Virus record (IMG/VR): IMGVR_UViG_3300018432_000019
Coordinates: 1 to 45,900 of that record
Direction: 5' to 3' (one strand)
From: a virus
Length of the DNA: 45,900 nt
The first letter of the stretch is position 1. Each line of letters begins with the position of its first letter. The notes below the pieces were generated by a model. That model did no database searches and was not told the DNA's origin. It worked only from the letters and a program-made list of their open reading frames with translations. Below, in pieces: positions 3,202 to 42,620 of this stretch. Made by a program: the position numbers and the translations under genes.

Positions 3202-3792
3202 TCAGTGTATGGACTCACCCGACGCCGACGCGCCCGCGTCCGACGCCGCGACTTCGTTTCCGTAACAATGCCAGCCCGCTCGCGGCCGGCGCGCGAACAG
3301 CTCGACGTACGGCCCCGGCCCGCCCGGAACGAGTGCTTCGGCGATCTCATACACGCGATCGGGTTTCGCGCTGTGTTCGCCCGCGACGGCGTCGAACGTC
3401 GAGCGGATCGATCGGTCGGCGACGCGAACGCGCCCGCGCACGCCGATCAGACACACTTCGTGTTCGGCGCGGACGTAGCGACCCATTCCGAACCATCGCT
3501 TGCCGTGCTTCGTTTGCTTGCGCCACACAAGTTCACTCTTGAGCGTGAAGCGCCAACCGTGCATGACTTCGAGCGCTTCAGCTTGCATCGAAGCGACGCG
3601 CCACAAGAGCAGTAAGCAGTCATCCGCGAGCGGCGGAAGATCGAACGCCAGTAGCTCGCCGACGCTCATACACGGATAGTGCTTCGCCGCGCCGCGCCCG
3701 TCGCCCGGAAGCTTGTCGTCGAACTTCCACGGCGGATCGGCGAGCAGCACGCGCGCGGGCGGACAGTCGTACAGCTTCGGGCGCGCGCTCAC
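3202..3792 (-). CDS. MT-A70 family adenine N6-methyltransferase
   Basis: 196 aa from a GTG at 3792 that overlaps the upstream stop (GTGA). The frame stays open further upstream but lies inside the previous gene. The catalytic DPPW motif is at residues ~19-22 (VLLADPPWKF). Next come the SAM/fold core (LPPLADDCLLLLWRVASMQA), SELVWRKQTKHG, a Trp/Gly segment (RWFGMGRYVRAEHEVCLIGV) and the C-terminal 'HSAKPDRVYEI...YVELFARR' characteristic of MT-A70 DNA methyltransferases. It probably methylates adenine in phage or host DNA, as protection from restriction or for regulation. The recognition site cannot be read from the sequence and no partner nuclease is present. Confidence 0.92.
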   Translation of the reverse strand: MSARPKLYDCPPARVLLADPPWKFDDKLPGDGRGAAKHYPCMSVGELLAFDLPPLADDCLLLLWRVASMQAEALEVMHGWRFTLKSELVWRKQTKHGKRWFGMGRYVRAEHEVCLIGVRGRVRVADRSIRSTFDAVAGEHSAKPDRVYEIAEALVPGGPGPYVELFARRPRAGWHCYGNEVAASDAGASASGESIH

Positions 3793-4028
3793 TGCGGGAT
3801 CCTCCCGGCCGCGACTGCGCGTCGATACGCTTCGTCGAACGGCGCGGGCGTCGAGCCTTCCCAGCGGGCAAGCGACAGCGACGCCGAGTCGTGTTCGGCG
3901 TCGCCGTAGCGCACGATCAGGATCGTGCCGCACACGTACAGATCGAAACGCCCATGCGTTCCGAGATACGCGCAGTGTTCGCACCCGTGCATGTGTCGCG
4001 GGCCGTCTAGTGGGTTAGGGAGTTCCAT
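3789..4028 (-). CDS. Hypothetical protein, 79 aa
   Basis: Not recognised. It has an early His/Cys cluster (RHMHGCEHCAYLG) that could bind a metal, a beta-rich middle (FDLYVCGTILIVRYGD) and a helical C-terminus (PFDEAYRRAVAAG). It overlaps the RuvC-like gene by 14 bp and the methyltransferase by a GTGA junction, so it is part of the replication operon. It may be an accessory to either neighbour, with no direct evidence. Confidence 0.6.
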   Translation of the reverse strand: MELPNPLDGPRHMHGCEHCAYLGTHGRFDLYVCGTILIVRYGDAEHDSASLSLARWEGSTPAPFDEAYRRAVAAGRIPQ

Positions 4029-4758: not shown

Positions 4759-5468
4759 GAAATCTCCGGAACTGCGGCGCCGTAGCTAACCGCCGTCAGC
4801 TGCAAGCCCCACCCTGACAGCACGGCGCCAATTGCCGGACCGTCGCCGCGACTGACTACCGCGTTCCCGATCACGCCGATCGCGTCGCGCAGCTGTACGC
4901 GCCATGTCGGGTACTTGCGTTTGTATTCGCACCACTCGAACAGGCTGTAAGGATTAGACCTATCGTTCTCAAATCCGGACACTAACGCGTCGAGTTCTAA
5001 AAGCCCGAACACGACCTGTTTGCGGCGCCGTAGCGCCAGCCAAACGGCTCGGGCGCTCGTGACAACGACTGGTAGCGACCCGACACGCGAACGGCAGCAC
5101 AGCGACGCTGACAGCGGCAATCGACCAAACAAGCGCGCTGGGAACGCCAGTACGTCTCCGCCTTCGATCGGCGAAAGTTCCGGTACCGGAAACCATCCCA
5201 GAACCCCCCCGAAGGGTGGTTCTGACTCTCTTAGAGTCAGAGAACCACCTTCGGGGGTTCTGGTTCTAAAACCACTGTTAGGTGGTTCTAGAACCACTTG
5301 AGCTAACCGATCAGTGAGTTCGCGATCGGTCGTTCTATTCAATGGAAAACTAGCTAACGCAGGCCGTTCGAGTGACGCAGGTGACGCACCCAACGCGAGC
5401 TGATCGGCGTGAGACTTCCGAGCCCGACGCGGACGAGTCGCCGCCCGGCTGACGCTGCGCCGGGTCAC
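4755..5468 (-). CDS. Hypothetical replication-operon protein containing a DNA palindrome cluster
   Basis: 237 aa from a GTG at 5468 (GTGA overlap with the primase stop). No family recognised. The N-terminus is very basic (RRSVSRAATRPRRARK), followed by DQLALGA, similar to the neighbouring nuclease. Residues ~55-85 are encoded by a dense array of palindromic GGTTCT/AGAACC DNA (5201-5297) and have unusual sequence, so this part may be shaped by DNA function. The C-terminal part looks globular (NPYSLFEWCEYKRKYPTWRV). It could be an origin-binding or replication-accessory protein by position, which is inference only. Confidence 0.55.
   Translation of the reverse strand: MTRRSVSRAATRPRRARKSHADQLALGASPASLERPALASFPLNRTTDRELTDRLAQVVLEPPNSGFRTRTPEGGSLTLRESEPPFGGVLGWFPVPELSPIEGGDVLAFPARLFGRLPLSASLCCRSRVGSLPVVVTSARAVWLALRRRKQVVFGLLELDALVSGFENDRSNPYSLFEWCEYKRKYPTWRVQLRDAIGVIGNAVVSRGDGPAIGAVLSGWGLQLTAVSYGAAVPEIS
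5201..5297. repeat. Clustered GGTTCT/AGAACC palindromes (origin or operator candidate)
   Basis: About 97 bp holding four GGTTCT and three AGAACC words. It includes a long imperfect inverted repeat at 5201-5263 (about 30-bp arms), a near-palindrome at 5261-5274 and a perfect 16-bp palindrome, GTGGTTCTAGAACCAC, at 5282-5297. A related TCTAGAACC lies at 4421-4429. Iterated palindromes beside a primase gene suit a replication origin or a protein-binding array. Confidence 0.65.
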
Positions 5469-9432: not shown

Positions 9433-10455
9433 ATGACGGCGGCGACACAAGCGGAACACAAACCGCATACAGCGCTACGCGTAGTAACAAACAGCGAACT
9501 CAAAGCGCGCCGACGCTGCGCGCGCGAACATCATTACGCCTACGAACTCGGATATCGAAGCGCCCGCGAAGATGCTGTCGAGCTGCGCTTCGGCACGCTG
9601 ATCCACCGTGCACTAGAGGCGTGGTGGAAAGAGCCCGATAGGGACAAGCGATTGATCGCGGCGCTCGCCGCGCTTCCGCTCGAACACGACGACCTATACG
9701 AACTCGCGCGCGCGTGCGAGATGCTCAACGGATACGACTGCCGTTGGCGCGACACGCGGCTCGTCGCGCTCGTCGTCGAGCATGAGTTCCGGATCCCGCT
9801 CGTTCATCCGCTGACGGGCGCTCGCTCGCTGTCGTATCAGCTGGGCGGCAAGCTCGACGGGATCGTTCGCGACGAGATAGACGGTCGCGTCTACGTGATC
9901 GAGCACAAAACGTCGAGCGACGATATCAGCGTCGGATCGACGTATTGGCAACTGTTGCGGATCGACACGCAAGTGTCGACGTACTACCACGCCGCGCGCG
10001 AGCAGGGCTTCGACCCGAGCGGCGTGATCTATGACGTGCTCGCGAAACCGCGCCACCGGCCGCTATTGGCGACGCCGCTCGACGAACGCAAGTTTCGCAA
10101 AGACGGCCTTCTATACGCGACGCAGCGCGACACGAACGAGTCGCCCGACGAATATCAGTCGCGCGTCCGCGACGCGATCGCCGAAGCGCCCGATCGCTAC
10201 TTCGCACGCGGGACCGTGGTTCGTCTCGAAGGCGAGGAAGTCGAAGCCGGGATCGACACGTGGGATCACACGGTCGCGATCCACGGCGCACGTCTCACGA
10301 TGCGTTGGCCACGCAACCCGGAGTCGTGTCGCCGGTACGGTCGCATGTGTTCTTATTTCCCTGTCTGTACGAACGAATCAGCGCTCGACAACCGCGAGTT
10401 GTATCAGCGCGTCGATAACGTCCACTCCGAGCTAACACCCGACACGACGCCCTAA
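9433..10455 (+). CDS. PD-(D/E)XK exonuclease, AddB/Cas4-like, with Fe-S cysteines
   Basis: 340 aa. The nuclease core has RFGTLIHRALEAWWK (52-66), D142 in KLDGIV, the E157-x-K159 motif in YVIEHKTS, and a following Gln/Tyr-rich helix (TQVSTYYHAA). Four cysteines, C29 and C299/C306/C312 (CRRYGRMCSYFPVC), are spaced as in 4Fe-4S nucleases of the AddB/Cas4/RecB-like group. Such phage exonucleases resect DNA ends for annealing by SSAP proteins, fitting the Sak4-like ATPase and SSB downstream. It is driven by the promoter box just upstream and is probably leaderless. Confidence 0.85.
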   Translation: MTAATQAEHKPHTALRVVTNSELKARRRCAREHHYAYELGYRSAREDAVELRFGTLIHRALEAWWKEPDRDKRLIAALAALPLEHDDLYELARACEMLNGYDCRWRDTRLVALVVEHEFRIPLVHPLTGARSLSYQLGGKLDGIVRDEIDGRVYVIEHKTSSDDISVGSTYWQLLRIDTQVSTYYHAAREQGFDPSGVIYDVLAKPRHRPLLATPLDERKFRKDGLLYATQRDTNESPDEYQSRVRDAIAEAPDRYFARGTVVRLEGEEVEAGIDTWDHTVAIHGARLTMRWPRNPESCRRYGRMCSYFPVCTNESALDNRELYQRVDNVHSELTPDTTP

Positions 10456-10560: not shown

Positions 10561-10884
10561 GTGCAACAACTAGAGTTCGACTTGTTGTTCGTATCCGGAT
10601 CCCGAACGTCGCGCGCGGCTGCGGAAGCCATCGCGGACGGCGCGCCGACGCTTCGGCGTCGCGTGTTCGGCGCGCTCGAAGCCGCGGCGCCCGATGGCAT
10701 GACAGACGAAGAAATGCAGGTCGCGCTACGCATGAGCGCGAACACGCAGCGCCCGCGCCGGGTCGAACTCGAACGCGCGGGACTTGTCGAAGACAGCGGA
10801 CGCACGCGCCCCACGCGCGCCGGCCGACTCGCTGTCGTCTGGGTTGCGAGCGGGCGCCCCTACACATCGAAGGCGGCGCCGTGA
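10561..10884 (+). CDS. Winged-helix DNA-binding protein
   Basis: 107 aa from a GTG at 10561, preceded by GGAG at 8-nt spacing. The core is a winged helix: TLRRRVFGALEAAAPDGMTD, EEMQVALRMSANTQRPRRVE, then LERAGLVEDSGRTRPT and the strand RLAVVWVA. This 'GMTDEE...RPRRVELxxxGLVxDSGxTRxT' pattern is common in small phage proteins near replication genes. It may regulate replication or recombination genes. It is flanked on both sides by short-word repeat DNA, which could hold its binding sites. Confidence 0.7.
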   Translation: MQQLEFDLLFVSGSRTSRAAAEAIADGAPTLRRRVFGALEAAAPDGMTDEEMQVALRMSANTQRPRRVELERAGLVEDSGRTRPTRAGRLAVVWVASGRPYTSKAAP

Positions 10885-11112
10885 AGCTCTCTTTCGCCGC
10901 TATGCGATGCGCGGAGACGCCGCGCACGGCAGTGCATGGCAAGGCTACGCGGCCCAACGCAACGCGGCGCGCGGCTATGCGCAGCGATGCTTTGCGTCGC
11001 ACTGCGCGGCATGGCTACGCGTTGCAAGGCTACGCGCGGCGGCGCTTTGTGTTGATCGGCACCGAACGGCAACGTGACGCAACGCGGCGCGTAGCAGTGC
11101 GACGCGACGCTA

Positions 11113-11213
11113 GGCACTGTTAGGCAAGGGTTCTGCTGCGCGCGGCAACACGTCGCAGCGCATTGCAGCGTGTGGCAGTGCGGAGCAGCGTTCGGCACTG
11201 TTAGGCAAGGGTT
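11113..11213 (+). repeat. 20-bp direct repeat, two copies 81 bp apart
   Basis: GGCACTGTTAGGCAAGGGTT occurs exactly at 11113-11132 and 11194-11213. Each copy is followed by a structured stretch: a hairpin with outer stem 11133-11137/11184-11188, and the tRNA-like fold starting at 11220. Confidence 0.9.
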
Positions 11214-11219
11214 GTTAGT

Positions 11220-11275
11220 CCGGGCGTAGCCGATGGTTCGGCGCGCTGTGCGGTTCGATTCCGCCGCTCGGGACC
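11220..11275 (+). ncRNA. tRNA-like structure lacking an anticodon arm
   Basis: A 7-bp acceptor stem (11220-11226 with 11265-11271, one G-U) closes the structure. TA at 11227-11228 matches U8-A9. The D arm is GCCG/CGGC (11229-11232 with 11239-11242) with loop ATGGTT, keeping A14 and G18G19. Only 7 nt follow, where a normal tRNA has an anticodon arm. The T arm GCGG/CCGC (11250-11253 with 11261-11264) encloses a TTCGATT loop, so GGTTCGATTCC matches the tRNA consensus exactly. The next bases are GACC, so CCA is not encoded. It could be a deleted tRNA relic or a functional decoy RNA. Expression is unknown. Confidence 0.5.
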
Positions 11276-11431
11276 GTGCGCGACGCTATGCGGCGCGCGG
11301 CAACGCCACGCTACGCGTCGACATTGCGGCGTGTGGCAACGCAATGCCCTGCATTGTGAGGCTATGCGTTGAGCTGCATTGCGCCGCGCTCCGAACCGAG
11401 GGCTGTACCTAACCGAAAGCGAGGGACTTGA

Positions 11432-12025
11432 ATGGAACGGATCGACCTACGAATCGAAGGCGTGACGCCTTTACTCATGAATGCGTTTCACGACGAAGCG
11501 CAGCTCGCAGCGACGAGCCGAACGAGCGCCGCGACGATCGGCGAGAAAGGGACGCCGCTCGAACAGGCGACGAAGAAACTGTATCGGGCGATCGACGGGA
11601 AGACGCTCGTGATCCCGCAACCGAATCTGCTGTCGTGCATCACCGCAGCCGGGAAGTTTTTCAAGGCCGGAAAGTCAAAGGTCACAACACAAAAGTCGAG
11701 CCTCATCCCCGCGTGTCTGTCGATCGAAGGCGTCGACATTGCGCTCGAACACAAGCAGCCGTGGCGCGTCGACTCGCGTCCGGTTCGCATCCCTTCGACG
11801 GGTGGGCGCGTGCTGTGTTACCGCCCGATGTTCGACGATTGGGCGCTCACAGTCGAGATGTTGTTAGACACGGACGTTATGACGGTCGCGCTACTGCGCG
11901 AAGTCGTCGACGCGGCCGGCAAGCGGATCGGATTGGGCGACTTCCGGCCGGACTGTAAAGGGCCCTTCGGGCGCTTCGTCGTGACACATTGGAAAACGCA
12001 GCGCTACAGCGAGGCGGCGGAATGA
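11432..12025 (+). CDS. Conserved phage protein of unknown function near Sak4/SSB
   Basis: 197 aa. The ATG at 11432 follows GAGGGA at good spacing. The sequence begins ERIDLRIEGVTPLLMNAFHD, has a Lys-rich middle (AAGKFFKAGKSKVTTQKSS), and ends with a Gly/Phe-rich part (KRIGLGDFRPDCKGPFGRFV). Proteins with 'IxGxTPLLMxxF' and 'GxGDFRPxxxGxFGRF' patterns occur in phage recombination modules without an assigned role. The ferredoxin-like look recalls RAMP/Cas7-type RNA-binding folds, but this is only an impression. It is first in the operon with the Sak4-like ATPase and SSB and is coupled to the next gene by ATGA. Confidence 0.65.
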   Translation: MERIDLRIEGVTPLLMNAFHDEAQLAATSRTSAATIGEKGTPLEQATKKLYRAIDGKTLVIPQPNLLSCITAAGKFFKAGKSKVTTQKSSLIPACLSIEGVDIALEHKQPWRVDSRPVRIPSTGGRVLCYRPMFDDWALTVEMLLDTDVMTVALLREVVDAAGKRIGLGDFRPDCKGPFGRFVVTHWKTQRYSEAAE

Positions 12026-12234
12026 GCGCCGACAACAAAGTCAGCGAGGAACAGCGCCTCGCCCTACGCGATGCAGTCGATCGCTGGTTGCACCGTTGTG
12101 CGACCGAGTCAATCGCCGCGTTCGAAGCCGGACGCTCGGGACACATCGGGTGTTTCAAGATCAGCGCCTATGCGGGCGACGACGAAGACGAACTAACACT
12201 AACAGTCCAACAGACGATAGAGGTGAGGCTATGA
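12022..12234 (+). CDS. Hypothetical protein, 70 aa
   Basis: It starts at 12022 (ATGA overlap) and ends overlapping the ATPase ATG. The N-terminal part is helical (SEEQRLALRDAVDRWLHRCA) and the C-terminal part beta-like and acidic (KISAYAGDDEDELTLTVQQT). Not recognised. It is tightly coupled on both sides, so it is probably part of the recombination module. Confidence 0.6.
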   Translation: MSADNKVSEEQRLALRDAVDRWLHRCATESIAAFEAGRSGHIGCFKISAYAGDDEDELTLTVQQTIEVRL

Positions 12235-13214
12235 ACACGCCCGCGCGGATGAAACTCGCGGGCGTGATCGGCGGCGTTCTCGACAAGCCGATCCGCTGTC
12301 TTGTGTACGGCGTCGACGGCGTTGGAAAGACGACGTTCGCGGCCGGCGCGCCGTCGCCGATCTTTATCGGCGCCGAAGACGGCACATCACAAATCAACGT
12401 CGCGCGCTTTCCCGAGCCGCACAGTTGGCGCGACGCCTTCGACGCGTTGCACGAACTCGAAACAGCCGAACACGAATACAAAACAGTCGTGATCGATACG
12501 CTCGATTGGCTTGAACCGATGTGTTGGGCGCACATCATGAAAGGCCGTCGCACGAAAGACGGTAAGGCCATCGAGTCGATCGACGATCTCGACTACGGGC
12601 GCGGCTACACTGCCGCGCTCGACGAATGGCGCGAGCTATGCGCGCGGCTCGATCGCGTGCGCGCGCGGCGCGGAATGGGCGTCGTGTTGCTCGCGCACGC
12701 ATGGATCAAAAAGTTTGCGAACCCCGAAGGCGAAGACTTCGATCGGTTTGAGGTCAAGTTACATCAAAAGGCGGCGGGCTTGCTTCGCGAGTGGGCAGAC
12801 GCCGTGCTGTTCGCGAACTTCGAAACCCTAACGCACGGCAAGAAAGGCCAGCGACACAAGGGGATCAGCACGGGCGCGCGCATCTTGCAGACGCGGCGCA
12901 CGGCTGCGGCGGATGCGAAGAACCGCTACAGCCTTCCCGAGATCTTGCCGCTCGATTGGAGTTCGTTCGCGGAAGCCGTCGCGAACCGACAGCCGGCCGA
13001 TCCCGAAGCGCTACGCGCTCGCATCACTGAGCTACTGCAAGCCGCGAAGGACGAGGCGCTGTCGGAACGCGTGCGCCGGGCCGTCGAAGCCGCGTGCGAC
13101 AACGCCCAGCTACTGGCGCGGATCGAAAACAAACTAGCAGCACAAGTCAGCGTCGACGACGGCAACAGCGACGACAACAACAAACAGGAAGGCGCAACCA
13201 ATGGCAACCGATGA
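12231..13214 (+). CDS. Sak4-like RecA-fold ATPase (single-strand annealing/recombination)
   Basis: 327 aa, ATG at 12231 after a strong GAGGTGAGG site. Walker A GVDGVGKT is at residues 27-34, Walker B VVIDTLDW is near 86-93, and MGVVLLAHAWIKKFANPEGE corresponds to the RecA motif before the L2 region. This layout matches phage AAA_24/Sak4 ATPases, which promote annealing of homologous single strands together with an SSB. The C-terminal ~60 residues are an acidic, helical and Asn-rich tail. It is followed by an SSB that overlaps its end by 14 bp, the usual functional pairing. The AddB-like nuclease upstream would supply single-stranded substrate. Confidence 0.85.
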   Translation: MNTPARMKLAGVIGGVLDKPIRCLVYGVDGVGKTTFAAGAPSPIFIGAEDGTSQINVARFPEPHSWRDAFDALHELETAEHEYKTVVIDTLDWLEPMCWAHIMKGRRTKDGKAIESIDDLDYGRGYTAALDEWRELCARLDRVRARRGMGVVLLAHAWIKKFANPEGEDFDRFEVKLHQKAAGLLREWADAVLFANFETLTHGKKGQRHKGISTGARILQTRRTAAADAKNRYSLPEILPLDWSSFAEAVANRQPADPEALRARITELLQAAKDEALSERVRRAVEAACDNAQLLARIENKLAAQVSVDDGNSDDNNKQEGATNGNR

Positions 13215-31313: not shown

Positions 31314-33316
31314 GCCGGAACCGTCCCGCCCGTTTCGAGTAGCAGGCCTTCGAGCTCTCGTTCGAGTTCGCGCCGGAAGTCGCGCGCGAGCTGTTCGGGC
31401 TTGTCGCTCGCCGCGTGCACGCTGATCGATTGGATCGTGATCGTGTTGCCGCCGCGAGCTGCAGCGCCGCCGCCGCCGTCTTTCGAGCGCTCGCCGGATG
31501 GCGGCGCGATCTGCCCGAGCTGCGGCGTCGACGCAGAGAGCATGCCGGCGCTTGCTGCTTCCGCTGTTTGAGAGTTCGACTCGACGCCCTTCGCAACGCC
31601 AGCCGGGATCTCTAGCCCGAGCTTTGCGAACGCTTTCGACGGCGACGTGATCCCTAGCGCTTCCTTGAATGTGTCGAGCGCGCCCAACGCGAGTTCCTTC
31701 ATTTTGTCGTATATGGGCGCGCCGATCATGCCGCGAACGATCCCTTCGATGATATCTAACCCAGCCTCCAACCAGTCGAGTTGTTGAAACGCGATCACGA
31801 GATCGTCCCAATATTTGATCAGCGTGTAGACGAGGTAGCCAACAGCACCGATCGCGAGCGCGATCGCGAGGAACGGCCCGAGTGCGGCGAACGTCGCAAC
31901 GGCGCCTTTCCAAAGTAGCGGGATCAACAGCTTTCCGAGCTTGAAACTAAGAGCCGTAGCCGCAAGGCCCGAAACGCCCAGCGCGAACGCGAGTCCGTAC
32001 AACGCCGCTTTGCCGGCGAGCACGGCGACGCGCCCAACGTCGAGTCCTTCGAACAGCGTCGAGTCGCCGAACGTTTTCTTGAACAAGTTTCGGATCGTCA
32101 ACACGACGATCCCGAACTGCAAAGCCGCGATGATCATCCCTTGGAAAAACCGCTTGATGATCGGCGTTGCTTTCGTGCTGCCGTCGATCAACGGTTGCAG
32201 GATCGCGGTAACCATCGCTTTCAGTGCGCGCCCGCTCGCCGTCGCTTGCGTTAGTAGACCATTCACGCTCGCCCACCCGGCGAGGTACTGATCCATGTCG
32301 AGTCCCGTGAACAGCGCGTCGAACGCCTCTTTTTGTTTCTCCGCTTGCACTGTGAGCGAAGTCATCTGCTTCGCCGCAATGCCGCCGAGTCGCGATCGCA
32401 CCTTGTCGACGAGCTTGTCGATACTACCGCCCGTCATGTTCACGCCCGCCGCCCAACCGGCGAACGCACTCGCCGCTTCCTCGCCCTGGACACTCAGTTT
32501 CAGGCCGACGCCTTCAAGCGCTTTTTCGAGCGCGGGCCCGCGCATCCCCATCTTGTAGAGTTGATCGTTGTACTTTGCGAGCGCTTCGCGCCCGGCCGGA
32601 ACTTTCGCCGCGACGCGATCCAGCGCGCCTTGCATTTGTTGCGCGTTGCCGGGAATGCGCTGATACAGAAACCGCAACTTCGTCAGGCCTTCGAGCCGCA
32701 ACAGTTCCGATCGGCGCGCGTCCGCTTGCGCGACGCCATACTTGTAGAGCTGACGCGTCGCGGCGATCGTTGCGACGACGAGCGCGGCTAGCGCGGCGGC
32801 GATGGCGGCGACGCCCGCGGCGATCAGTCCGCCGCGCAGTAGACCGCGAACGTTCCCGAGCTGACTAACAAACTTCCCGAGCGGGCCCGGAAGCGCGCCC
32901 GCGTTCTTCGTCAGTGCTTCGAGCCGCGCGCCGAAAGTGCGCGCGCCTTCGGCTGCTTTCTTCGCTTCCGCGGGCGCGCCTTGCATCTTTTGTACGACGC
33001 TCGCGATCTTCGCTTCGAAGCCGCCGCCCGACTTCGCCGCTTTCTTGAACTCGCCGCCCAACGCGATGAACTGAGACTGGGCGGCGGCGACGGCTTCCTT
33101 TTTCTGTACGATCGACGACTTGAGTTTGTTGATCTGATCGGTGTTCGGCGCCGTCGCCGCCGACAAGTTTTTCAGTGCGCGCTGCATCGCGCCGAGTTCG
33201 CGCGTGTCGCCCTTGATCGCCGCTTCGAGATGTTCGAGCGCCTTAGCCGCGGACTCCGCTTCGCCCGCGCCTTCGATCCCGAGATCGATCTGATACTCTG
33301 CTTTTTGATCTACCAC
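31310..33316 (-). CDS. Tail tape measure protein
   Basis: 668 aa. The N-terminal 150 residues form a coiled-coil region (ESAAKALEHLEAAIKGDTRE, SSIVQKKEAVAAAQSQFIAL). Hydrophobic helices lie near 185-205 (VAAIAAALAALVVATIAA) and ~465-500 (FLAIALAIGAVGYLVYTLI), and a C-terminal domain follows the TSPSKAFAKLGLEIPAGVAK segment. It sets tail length. At 1 residue per ~1.5 A, 668 aa suggests about a 100-nm tail (inference). It starts 7 nt after the chaperone extension ends. Confidence 0.9.
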   Translation of the reverse strand: MVDQKAEYQIDLGIEGAGEAESAAKALEHLEAAIKGDTRELGAMQRALKNLSAATAPNTDQINKLKSSIVQKKEAVAAAQSQFIALGGEFKKAAKSGGGFEAKIASVVQKMQGAPAEAKKAAEGARTFGARLEALTKNAGALPGPLGKFVSQLGNVRGLLRGGLIAAGVAAIAAALAALVVATIAATRQLYKYGVAQADARRSELLRLEGLTKLRFLYQRIPGNAQQMQGALDRVAAKVPAGREALAKYNDQLYKMGMRGPALEKALEGVGLKLSVQGEEAASAFAGWAAGVNMTGGSIDKLVDKVRSRLGGIAAKQMTSLTVQAEKQKEAFDALFTGLDMDQYLAGWASVNGLLTQATASGRALKAMVTAILQPLIDGSTKATPIIKRFFQGMIIAALQFGIVVLTIRNLFKKTFGDSTLFEGLDVGRVAVLAGKAALYGLAFALGVSGLAATALSFKLGKLLIPLLWKGAVATFAALGPFLAIALAIGAVGYLVYTLIKYWDDLVIAFQQLDWLEAGLDIIEGIVRGMIGAPIYDKMKELALGALDTFKEALGITSPSKAFAKLGLEIPAGVAKGVESNSQTAEAASAGMLSASTPQLGQIAPPSGERSKDGGGGAAARGGNTITIQSISVHAASDKPEQLARDFRRELERELEGLLLETGGTVPA

Positions 33317-36543: not shown

Positions 36544-36940
36544 TGCCGCCGCCCGTGATCTGTTCGAAGTGTTTGTCGAGCGTGTTCCGGATCGCGATCG
36601 CGATCGGATCCGGCAACGTCGGGCCGTACGGAATGACACGGCGCACGGCGCCGCCGCGCGCGCGCCCGCGATGATGTCGCGCTTCGTTGCCTTTCAATCG
36701 GATGTAAACAACCGAGCCGACTGCGGCGACATAGAGGCGGCTCGTCGCGTTCGGAAGTAGCTGTCCCGATCCCGACTTCCGCTTTTCCCAGGGCTCGCCG
36801 TCCGGCGACTGTTCCCGAGCGATCGTTGATTCCAACTCGCCGCGCACGGCGAGCGCAACGTCGGGCGCCGCGCGTTCGCCGAAGTTAGACAACTCGCGAA
36901 GCGAGTCGATCATCGCGCGCACTGCGGCGTCGGCGCTCAT
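36536..36940 (-). CDS. Virion morphogenesis (Mu gpG / tail completion) protein
   Basis: 134 aa. It has VRAMIDSLRELSNFGERAAP, ESTIAREQSPDGEPWEKRKS and a C-terminal segment (VVYIRLKGNEARHHRGRARG, then PIAIAIRNTLDKHFEQI). The 'SPDGxPWxxRK' motif is characteristic of phage virion-morphogenesis proteins that complete the head-tail joint. It overlaps both neighbours. Confidence 0.8.
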   Translation of the reverse strand: MSADAAVRAMIDSLRELSNFGERAAPDVALAVRGELESTIAREQSPDGEPWEKRKSGSGQLLPNATSRLYVAAVGSVVYIRLKGNEARHHRGRARGGAVRRVIPYGPTLPDPIAIAIRNTLDKHFEQITGGGNG

Positions 36941-40992: not shown

Positions 40993-42620
40993 GCTGCCCT
41001 TTCGATCGGAATGACGTTCGACACGTCGTCGTCGAGTTCGTCGTCGAGTTCGTCGTCGTCGATCGGATCGGCTTCGTCGATCGGCAACTCGTCGGCGTCG
41101 CCGCCGCCGTCAGCATCCGCGATCGGCGCGGGAACAAATCCGTTCCCGACAGTCCCGAGCAAGCGTTCGGCGGTTTCGCGATCGACATTGAACGCGACGC
41201 GAATGATCTCGACTCCGCTTTCGCGCGGAAGTTGTCCTAGCGCGACCTGGCCGATCACTGTCAGCAGTGAATCGACTTGTCCGCCGTCGAGCGCACTGTC
41301 GGGCGCGGCCGGTTCGGATTCGGGTTCGGCTTCGACGGGGATCGCAAAGCGCGTGCACAGCGCGGCTACGTCCGGTTTTTGGCCATGTTCGACAAGCGCC
41401 GCTGTTAGTTGAATGATCGCGTTCGCCGTAGCTGACAGCGACATGGCTTCGCTGTTGCGATCCTTCGGCGGCGTCACATCCCAATCGACGACGCACGGGC
41501 GATCGTTGATCGCGTCTTCGCCCCAAATGCGCGCGACGTACGCCGGGATCCCCTGCGTGTTGATCGTGTACGCGAGTCCGTCCGCCGTTTCCTTGATCAA
41601 GTCGGCGCGGATGGATTTGTGGATGTCGCTGTTTTGGAAGCCAGCGCCGCCGTCGACTGTCACTGTTTGGCCAGCGACAGCGATGATCATCTCCGTGTTT
41701 TGATCGGCGATCGTCTTATTGAAGCTCTCCCACCCGCGACCGTTCGACTCGATCAACTTCACATCGTATCCGGGACGCATCCCAAACACGGTGTTGATCC
41801 CCCATGCCATGACCTGACGGAACCAAGCTTGCGACTGTTCTTCGCTACCGCCCGCGGGCGACACAGCGACGCGCGCCGGGTTCGCGAGCTTGCCTTCCCA
41901 GTTGTCTTTCTGTAACGCGGCGTGGTGCTTACGAATGTATGCGCGCCCGATCGCGCGCCAGATCCCATTCATCCACGGCGACGAGCGTCCGCCCGGACAG
42001 TGCAAGATCCAGCGCCCGTCGCCCGGAACGACCGGGATCAGTCCGTGCGCACTGCGGAAGTACCAAGCGTTGTCGATCCAGCGGTACACAAGAAACTGCG
42101 GCTGCAGTCGAACGAATACCGGATAGTCACGGCCTTCGACCGGAACGAGTTCGCCGACGCCGACGCCTAGACAGATCCCATCCGCGGCGAGCTGCGCAAG
42201 CTCGCTCGACGGAAACATTTCATCGAAGACGCTTCGGATCGCGGCGTCGCCGTGCCCGATCTCAAGCGACGCGACAACATCGGGATCGCCGCGAAAGCGG
42301 ATCGGCAAGCGCACTAACCCGCTCGTCCGCGTCGACAGTACGCCCGCGAACACGCCGTCCGAACGCGCCGCGCGCATGAGTAAGCCGGCCTGCTCTAGAT
42401 TGCCGCCGTCCGCGGCGAACTCCGCGGCTTCGAGCTGCGCGAGATACCAGCGCGTCTGCGGAACGGTTGGCAACTCCAACTGTCCGCCCATGCGCTTGCG
42501 CGCTTCGACTATCTGCGGCGCGTCGAGCGTCTGACGTTCGGCAACGTACGGCGATTCGTTCCGCTGGTAAGCGGAACGACCTAACAGCGTCGCCGTAAGT
42601 TCCGCTAGCCGTTCGAACAC
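40989..42620 (-). CDS. Portal protein (DUF935, Mu gp29-like)
   Basis: 543 aa. It has QLELPTVPQTRWYLAQLEAA, VFAGVLSTRTSGLVRLPIRF, RKHHAALQKDNWEGKLANPA, QVMAWGINTVFGMRPGYDVK and DINTQ-type segment (TADGLAYTINTQGIPAYVAR, GEDAINDRPCVVDWDVTPPK), fitting DUF935 portals. The C-terminal ~60 residues are highly acidic (DDDELDDELDDD). It forms the dodecameric DNA channel at the head vertex. It follows the terminase and an HTH gene. Confidence 0.92.
   Translation of the reverse strand: MFERLAELTATLLGRSAYQRNESPYVAERQTLDAPQIVEARKRMGGQLELPTVPQTRWYLAQLEAAEFAADGGNLEQAGLLMRAARSDGVFAGVLSTRTSGLVRLPIRFRGDPDVVASLEIGHGDAAIRSVFDEMFPSSELAQLAADGICLGVGVGELVPVEGRDYPVFVRLQPQFLVYRWIDNAWYFRSAHGLIPVVPGDGRWILHCPGGRSSPWMNGIWRAIGRAYIRKHHAALQKDNWEGKLANPARVAVSPAGGSEEQSQAWFRQVMAWGINTVFGMRPGYDVKLIESNGRGWESFNKTIADQNTEMIIAVAGQTVTVDGGAGFQNSDIHKSIRADLIKETADGLAYTINTQGIPAYVARIWGEDAINDRPCVVDWDVTPPKDRNSEAMSLSATANAIIQLTAALVEHGQKPDVAALCTRFAIPVEAEPESEPAAPDSALDGGQVDSLLTVIGQVALGQLPRESGVEIIRVAFNVDRETAERLLGTVGNGFVPAPIADADGGGDADELPIDEADPIDDDELDDELDDDVSNVIPIERAA

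Follow-up and report, generated by a model that had tools for sequence, protein, structure and literature searches.

In the tRNA punctuation of mitochondrial transcripts, as well as in engineered tRNA-guide-RNA arrays, tRNA-shaped units free the neighbouring RNAs from one transcript. Viral Interference Programmable Repeat (VIPR) systems, according to the main text of a preprint (PMC13142463, bioRxiv 2026), consist of a phage-encoded RAMP protein and vrRNAs of 9-16 GGY/NN pentamers with a structured tail, read DNA by a gapped code and act against competing phages. Arrays that are staggered or interspersed with hammerheads, as well as systems with a single vrRNA, were reported there, and tRNA is never mentioned in this main text. 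Repeated intergenic elements, namely the 13-bp repeat SAS and the imperfect 17-bp inverted repeat ESAS, were described in cluster K mycobacteriophages (PMC3203893).

The window analysed here is the whole stretch of viral DNA, 45,900 nucleotides long, at positions 1-45,900 of the IMG/VR record IMGVR_UViG_3300018432_000019. The virus is a myovirus, because tail sheath, baseplate and Mu-like portal genes were found in the window. A VIPR locus, i.e. a Vipr (RAMP) gene beside pentamer guide arrays, is present and includes the following features:

9433..10455, + strand: PD-(D/E)XK exonuclease gene, same co-directional block
10561..10884, + strand: gene of a 107-aa protein, phrog_1123, upstream of the array; candidate vap accessory
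10898..11132, + strand: pentamer tract A, about 47 units, BGY/NN, ending with GGCACTGTTAGGCAAGGGTT
11113..11132, + strand: direct repeat copy 1, the 20-nt end of tract A
11134..11213, + strand: pentamer tract B, 16 units, candidate vrRNA unit, ending with the second GGCACTGTTAGGCAAGGGTT copy
11194..11213, + strand: direct repeat copy 2, the 20-nt end of tract B
11219..11275, + strand: anticodon-less tRNA-like element with an 8/4 acceptor/T stack, a UGGU-loop D hairpin and the T arm GGUUCGAUUCC, then ACC
11276..11395, + strand: pentamer tracts C/D, about 8 and 14 units, downstream of the element
11432..12025, + strand: gene of the Vipr protein, PHROG family 4652, 197 aa, RAMP/Cas7-like fold
12231..13214, + strand: gene of a Sak4-like AAA_24 annealing protein

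The co-directional block runs in the order exonuclease, phrog_1123, a non-coding stretch, PHROG 4652, Sak4 and serine integrase, and the phrog_1123 protein is possibly the product of a vap accessory gene. Eleven PHROG 4652 homologues were combined into a profile, which retrieved one PDB entry, 36pp ("SUSP1 Vipr protein"), with E = 2.5e-27 (E = 7e-7 for the protein alone), and the predicted structure matched Csm3/Cas7 subunits in Foldseek. Judged by this homology and structural modelling, the PHROG 4652 product is identified as a Vipr protein of the RAMP superfamily.

The stretch around the element, taken for a non-coding region in the initial annotation, is in fact a vrRNA array next to the Vipr gene. 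It is an array of GC-rich pentamers whose period-5 signal (104 bits) is unique in the window and whose composition by position (G 0.98, C/T 0.94, N, N, then B, i.e. not A) gives the consensus B-G-Y-N-N, near the published GGY/NN. These pentamers are the vrRNA (guide RNA) array of a VIPR system, because the adjacent PHROG 4652 gene encodes a Vipr protein. The locus thus shares with the described systems a Vipr RAMP protein adjoining pentamer vrRNA arrays in a phage (PMC13142463, main text). It differs in its looser consensus (B-G-Y/NN), in tract A, which with about 47 units exceeds the published 9-16 while tract B (16) is within that range, and in the separation of its tracts by a tRNA-like element, whereas the main text of PMC13142463 is without tRNA. 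Unlike in hammerhead-interspersed arrays, no hammerhead ribozyme was found between the tracts, and none was proposed by Rfam within the array with E-values of up to 10 allowed; at gathering score no Rfam family was found in the window. One guide was decoded, that of tract B, and no exact target of it was found in IMG/VR. The 20-bp direct repeat noticed earlier is real (11113-11132 and 11194-11213) and can be read as a 3' terminus common to pentamer tracts A and B, with tract B continuing into the element. The motif CCTAACA, whose complement TGTTAGG is a part of this repeat, was found at 10 and 10451 on the + strand and at 5277, 11119, 11200, 37530, 39377 and 39417 on the - strand, several times in spacers.

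The window contains a single tRNA-like element, which reads from 11219 to 11275 as UCCGGGCG UA GCCGA-UGGU-UCGGC GCGCUGU GCGG-UUCGAUU-CCGC CGCUCGGG ACC and is composed of the following parts:

11219-11226, + strand: acceptor 5' strand
11227-11228, + strand: U8A9
11229-11242, + strand: D hairpin GCCGA-UGGU-UCGGC, 5 bp, the UGGU loop holding G18G19
11243-11249, + strand: linker GCGCUGU, 7 nt, at the site of the missing anticodon arm
11250-11253/11261-11264, + strand: T stem, 4 bp
11254-11260, + strand: T loop UUCGAUU, consensus
11265-11272, + strand: acceptor 3' strand
11273-11275, + strand: ACC tail

The acceptor/T stack comprises 8+4 pairs with two G-U, the outermost acceptor pair being U-G, and 12 nt lead from the T loop to the stack end, followed by ACC. 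Folded with these exact ends, the element has the anticodon-less cloverleaf as its minimum-energy structure (-25.0 kcal/mol). There is no anticodon arm, 7 nt lying between the D and T arms, and ARAGORN calls no tRNA. The 7-nt linker of the initial annotation stands; its 4-bp D stem becomes a 5-bp stem with a UGGU loop, and its acceptor of 7 bp with one G-U, starting at 11220, becomes one of 8 bp, starting at 11219, with two G-U in the stack. The fold energy is no better than that of shuffled sequences (z -0.80, or -0.28 with other ends) and is uninformative as a test at such GC. A fold no more stable than shuffled sequence had been named as an argument against the element, which by this measure alone would fail, because its energy does not beat the shuffles.

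Neither ARAGORN nor Rfam at gathering score matches the element; under permissive settings the Rfam tRNA-Sec model aligns to it at 21.6 bits, its anticodon arm being left out of the alignment. Sequence and structure taken together do exceed chance, as judged by two covariance models. R2, built from real tRNAs with clipped anticodon arms, gives the element 24.3 bits (E = 2.5e-5) and the runner-up site of the window 14.0, i.e. 10 bits lower; R1, built from actinophage elements only, with the window left out, gives 26.9 bits (E = 4.5e-4) and 19.8 for the runner-up, placing the acceptor in another register, and both E-values are rough owing to a short calibration. When the region was shuffled 20,000 times with its dinucleotides preserved, 2 of the shuffles matched the full descriptor, which was written after the element had been seen. 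The pattern of the D arm plus the T arm had only 6 matches in 257 Gb of cellular genomes, all unconvincing, as none was called a tRNA by ARAGORN or scored strongly by R1. A chance product of GC-rich repeats would agree with the high GC and with the fold energy, but the scarcity of the descriptor among shuffles, the R2 score and these six cellular matches make this origin, already disfavoured, extremely improbable. The presence of a tRNA-like fold without an anticodon arm at 11219-11275 is thus confirmed by R2, R1, the exact-end fold and the shuffled-descriptor test.

Blastn of the region against phages gave no match, and that of the element itself gave weak matches only, Fowlmouth-type elements included. 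The exact 3'-end pattern does not occur in IMG/VR; several of the first 25 IMG/VR pattern matches are real tRNAs and most others are without pairing. The window's copy has no known close relative and its own pairs lie outside the covariation test discussed below, so that its support comes from the model scores, the location in a VIPR array and the like arrangement in other phages.

GGCNN arrays are common in IMG/VR, and a Vipr homologue was detectable in 28 of 80 array loci. Only two of these 80 loci, both metagenomic, have tRNA-like elements: in L209 three elements are interleaved with the array upstream of vipr, and in L192 vipr is followed by arrays with one element among them. Like layouts were found in two Gordonia phages, whose Vipr proteins are homologous to that of the window and whose elements have R1 scores of 34.6-45.9 bits. 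MakoManhole has an element, an array and vipr in this order, with two further elements after arrays, and in Trine vipr comes first, after which three elements alternate with arrays. In most cases, the elements inside or next to vrRNA arrays sit just past a tract end, the distance from the end of a CAAGG-type tract to the element start being 6-17 nt in the window (8 nt), Trine, MakoManhole, L192 and L209. The seven nearest Vipr relatives (L003-L009) contain arrays in at least three cases and a tRNA-like element in none. Because it is absent from these relatives and present in only 2/80 IMG/VR array loci, a tRNA-like element in a VIPR array is a minority design.

Phages acquire tRNA pieces, and the single copy in the window could be taken for what is left of a captured host tRNA, now without function, or for a fragment of an attachment site. 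Such an origin is highly improbable, since the pairing is intact in all three arms, the element recurs beside vipr in unrelated phages and the integrase of the window is a serine recombinase. The element could also be a structured 3' tail of the vrRNA, i.e. a stabilising or Vipr-contacting cap and not a cutting site. It lies 5 nt past the end of tract B, with further pentamers after it, and published vrRNAs carry at their end, behind the repeats, a tail that is conserved and structured (PMC13142463, main text). However, tract A has the same 20-nt end as tract B and no element, in MakoManhole an element comes before an array and lies 10 nt behind the preceding stop codon, and the wider family described below occurs between ordinary genes without an array; a tail function is therefore unlikely. 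In L192, other hairpins (GCCCC...GGGGC) follow tracts at 3672-3702 and 3894-3930, where a neighbouring unit has the tRNA-like element, and are possibly alternative tails. In Donkeykong, the annotated gene gp48 (L312 2371-2757) spans a pentamer array just upstream of the Vipr-like gp49 and is probably an over-called reading frame.

Anticodon-less tRNA-like elements were also found between ordinary genes of actinophages, with as many as 16 in one genome. This intergenic family is tied to the VIPR elements by the structure common to both and by R1, which matches both. Mycobacterium phage Fowlmouth (L016), reached through a D arm identical to that of the window element, has about 10 elements; R1 counts are 16 in VanLee, 11 in Indlulamithi, 10 in Cuke, 9 each in Cafasso and Morgana, and 1 in Rockstar. 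Loci of this large family are L041, L042, L044, L047/L048, L067 and L068. Gaps of 70-140 nt hold an element in 14/14 cases in VanLee, 8/10 in Indlulamithi and 7/11 in Cuke. Most elements of Fowlmouth, Cuke and Indlulamithi begin 8-10 nt past a stop codon and leave about 35-54 nt to the next start, placement in VanLee being more variable. A restricted pattern recovered >120 IMG/VR stretches, the first 80 loci contributing 51 distinct elements with pairing. No Rfam gathering matches were found in the ten carrier loci tested, and nothing was found in the literature on tRNA-like phage elements and the carrier phages. Like SAS/ESAS, these are repeated intergenic elements upstream of start codons; SAS and ESAS differ in that they were not described as tRNA-like (PMC3203893).

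Compensatory changes, whose absence had also been named as counting against the fold, are present in the wider family. In 58 elements, the window's copy excluded, 96.4% of the cells are paired and double changes occur in 13 of 16 pairs; over all three helices the covariation score is 0.562 versus 0.110 for shuffled and at most 0.112 for slid alignments, the alignment being fitted to the model, which somewhat favours the score. These sequence data are strong covariation proof of the predicted structure of the wider phage family. In 61 actinophage elements, the strand from the T loop to the stack end is 12 nt long in 45 and 11 nt in 16, and a purine-C follows the stack in all 61; the family tail is mostly ACG, and that of the window element is ACC.

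The start of most Fowlmouth, Cuke and Indlulamithi elements soon after a stop codon, together with their GC-rich stems, would suit transcription terminators that lack a U tail and stand behind stop codons or tracts. A terminator, however, has no need for the near-invariant T loop, the D-loop GG, the 11-12 bp stack and the purine-C tail; no promoter or U-tail terminator was found in a scan around the window element and no T run follows it, so that this role is highly unlikely. A tRNA-like decoy titrating tRNA-cleaving or tRNA-modifying host defences is very unlikely: lacking the anticodon arm, the element would be uncuttable there, and other phages have many copies, but these stand at fixed spacings between genes and after tracts, which a decoy does not need. 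Among the three ideas put forward in the initial annotation, that of a tRNA-like regulatory RNA pointed in the right direction, and the decoy and the relic gain no support.

In our opinion, the element is probably a tRNA-like punctuation mark in the guide-array transcript, cut by host tRNA enzymes; we infer the transcription, the cleavage, the enzymes and any use of the freed element. In its geometry, the family retains what RNase P reads, i.e. the stack length, the T loop, the D-loop GG and the purine-C, and the window element, with its 12-nt stack strand followed by ACC, fits this expectation. That elements stand between guides as well as between genes is suggestive of cutting. Punctuation is therefore proposed from the retained RNase P features and from this placement, and cutting between VIPR guides has a precedent in the hammerhead-interspersed arrays reported (PMC13142463, main text). 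The element would be transcribed together with the guides and fold into an acceptor/T-arm "elbow" recognised by host tRNA-processing enzymes. Cleavage by RNase P on the 5' side of the element would free the tract B guide unit at its 3' end, tract B being released as a 16-unit vrRNA, and the next unit would be opened by RNase Z or another 3' tRNA-processing nuclease, with a cut after A73. The freed element would be unable to decode, because it is without an anticodon arm. Against punctuation stand the 4-bp T stem, the U-G outermost acceptor pair, ACC instead of the mostly ACG tail of the family, the ordinary fold energy, the minority design, the length of tract A, the presence of only one element in the window and the lack of an IMG/VR target for the tract B guide. 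Whether anticodon-less elements form a general phage RNA-processing class, cut by host RNase P and 3' tRNA nucleases between genes as well as between VIPR guides, seems to us evenly balanced.

If punctuation is correct, the borrowing of host tRNA enzymes is a simple answer to how VIPR guides leave their precursor, and the wider family, which tRNA finders overlook and Rfam does not contain, would be an unrecognised layer of gene expression in well-studied model phages. VIPR arrays with elements would then be a natural version of engineered tRNA-guide-RNA arrays. By analogy with these and with mitochondrial punctuation, tRNA-shaped units would stand beside the RNAs to be released; the phage elements differ in being without an anticodon arm, non-decoding and located in phage genomes, where their putative RNase P substrate features (T loop, 12-bp stack, purine then C) occur in natural, repeated copies. 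Both kinds of elements could supply compact tools for the processing of multi-guide transcripts.

D29 and Kvothe gave blastn matches to the T arm but no element by R1, and were rejected as carriers. A feature of phiC31 (31424-31511; L188 11425-11512) does not belong to the family and is an ordinary, unannotated tRNA-Gly(CCC)-like gene with an enlarged central arm. Two Fowlmouth elements, at 36867-36930 and 41033-41098 (L048 1867-1930 and 6033-6098), have an extra hairpin at the anticodon-arm site, the loops of which do not look decodable. The annotated starts of Fowlmouth gp56 (L048 4448) and Trine gp40 (L314) lie inside or upstream of tRNA-like elements, and the true starts are probably downstream. 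The contigs L031 (2985-3041) and L017 have a single element, flanked by the genes of an SSB-like protein and a DNA methyltransferase, and between the two contigs its T stem shows a compensatory change from A-T to G-C.
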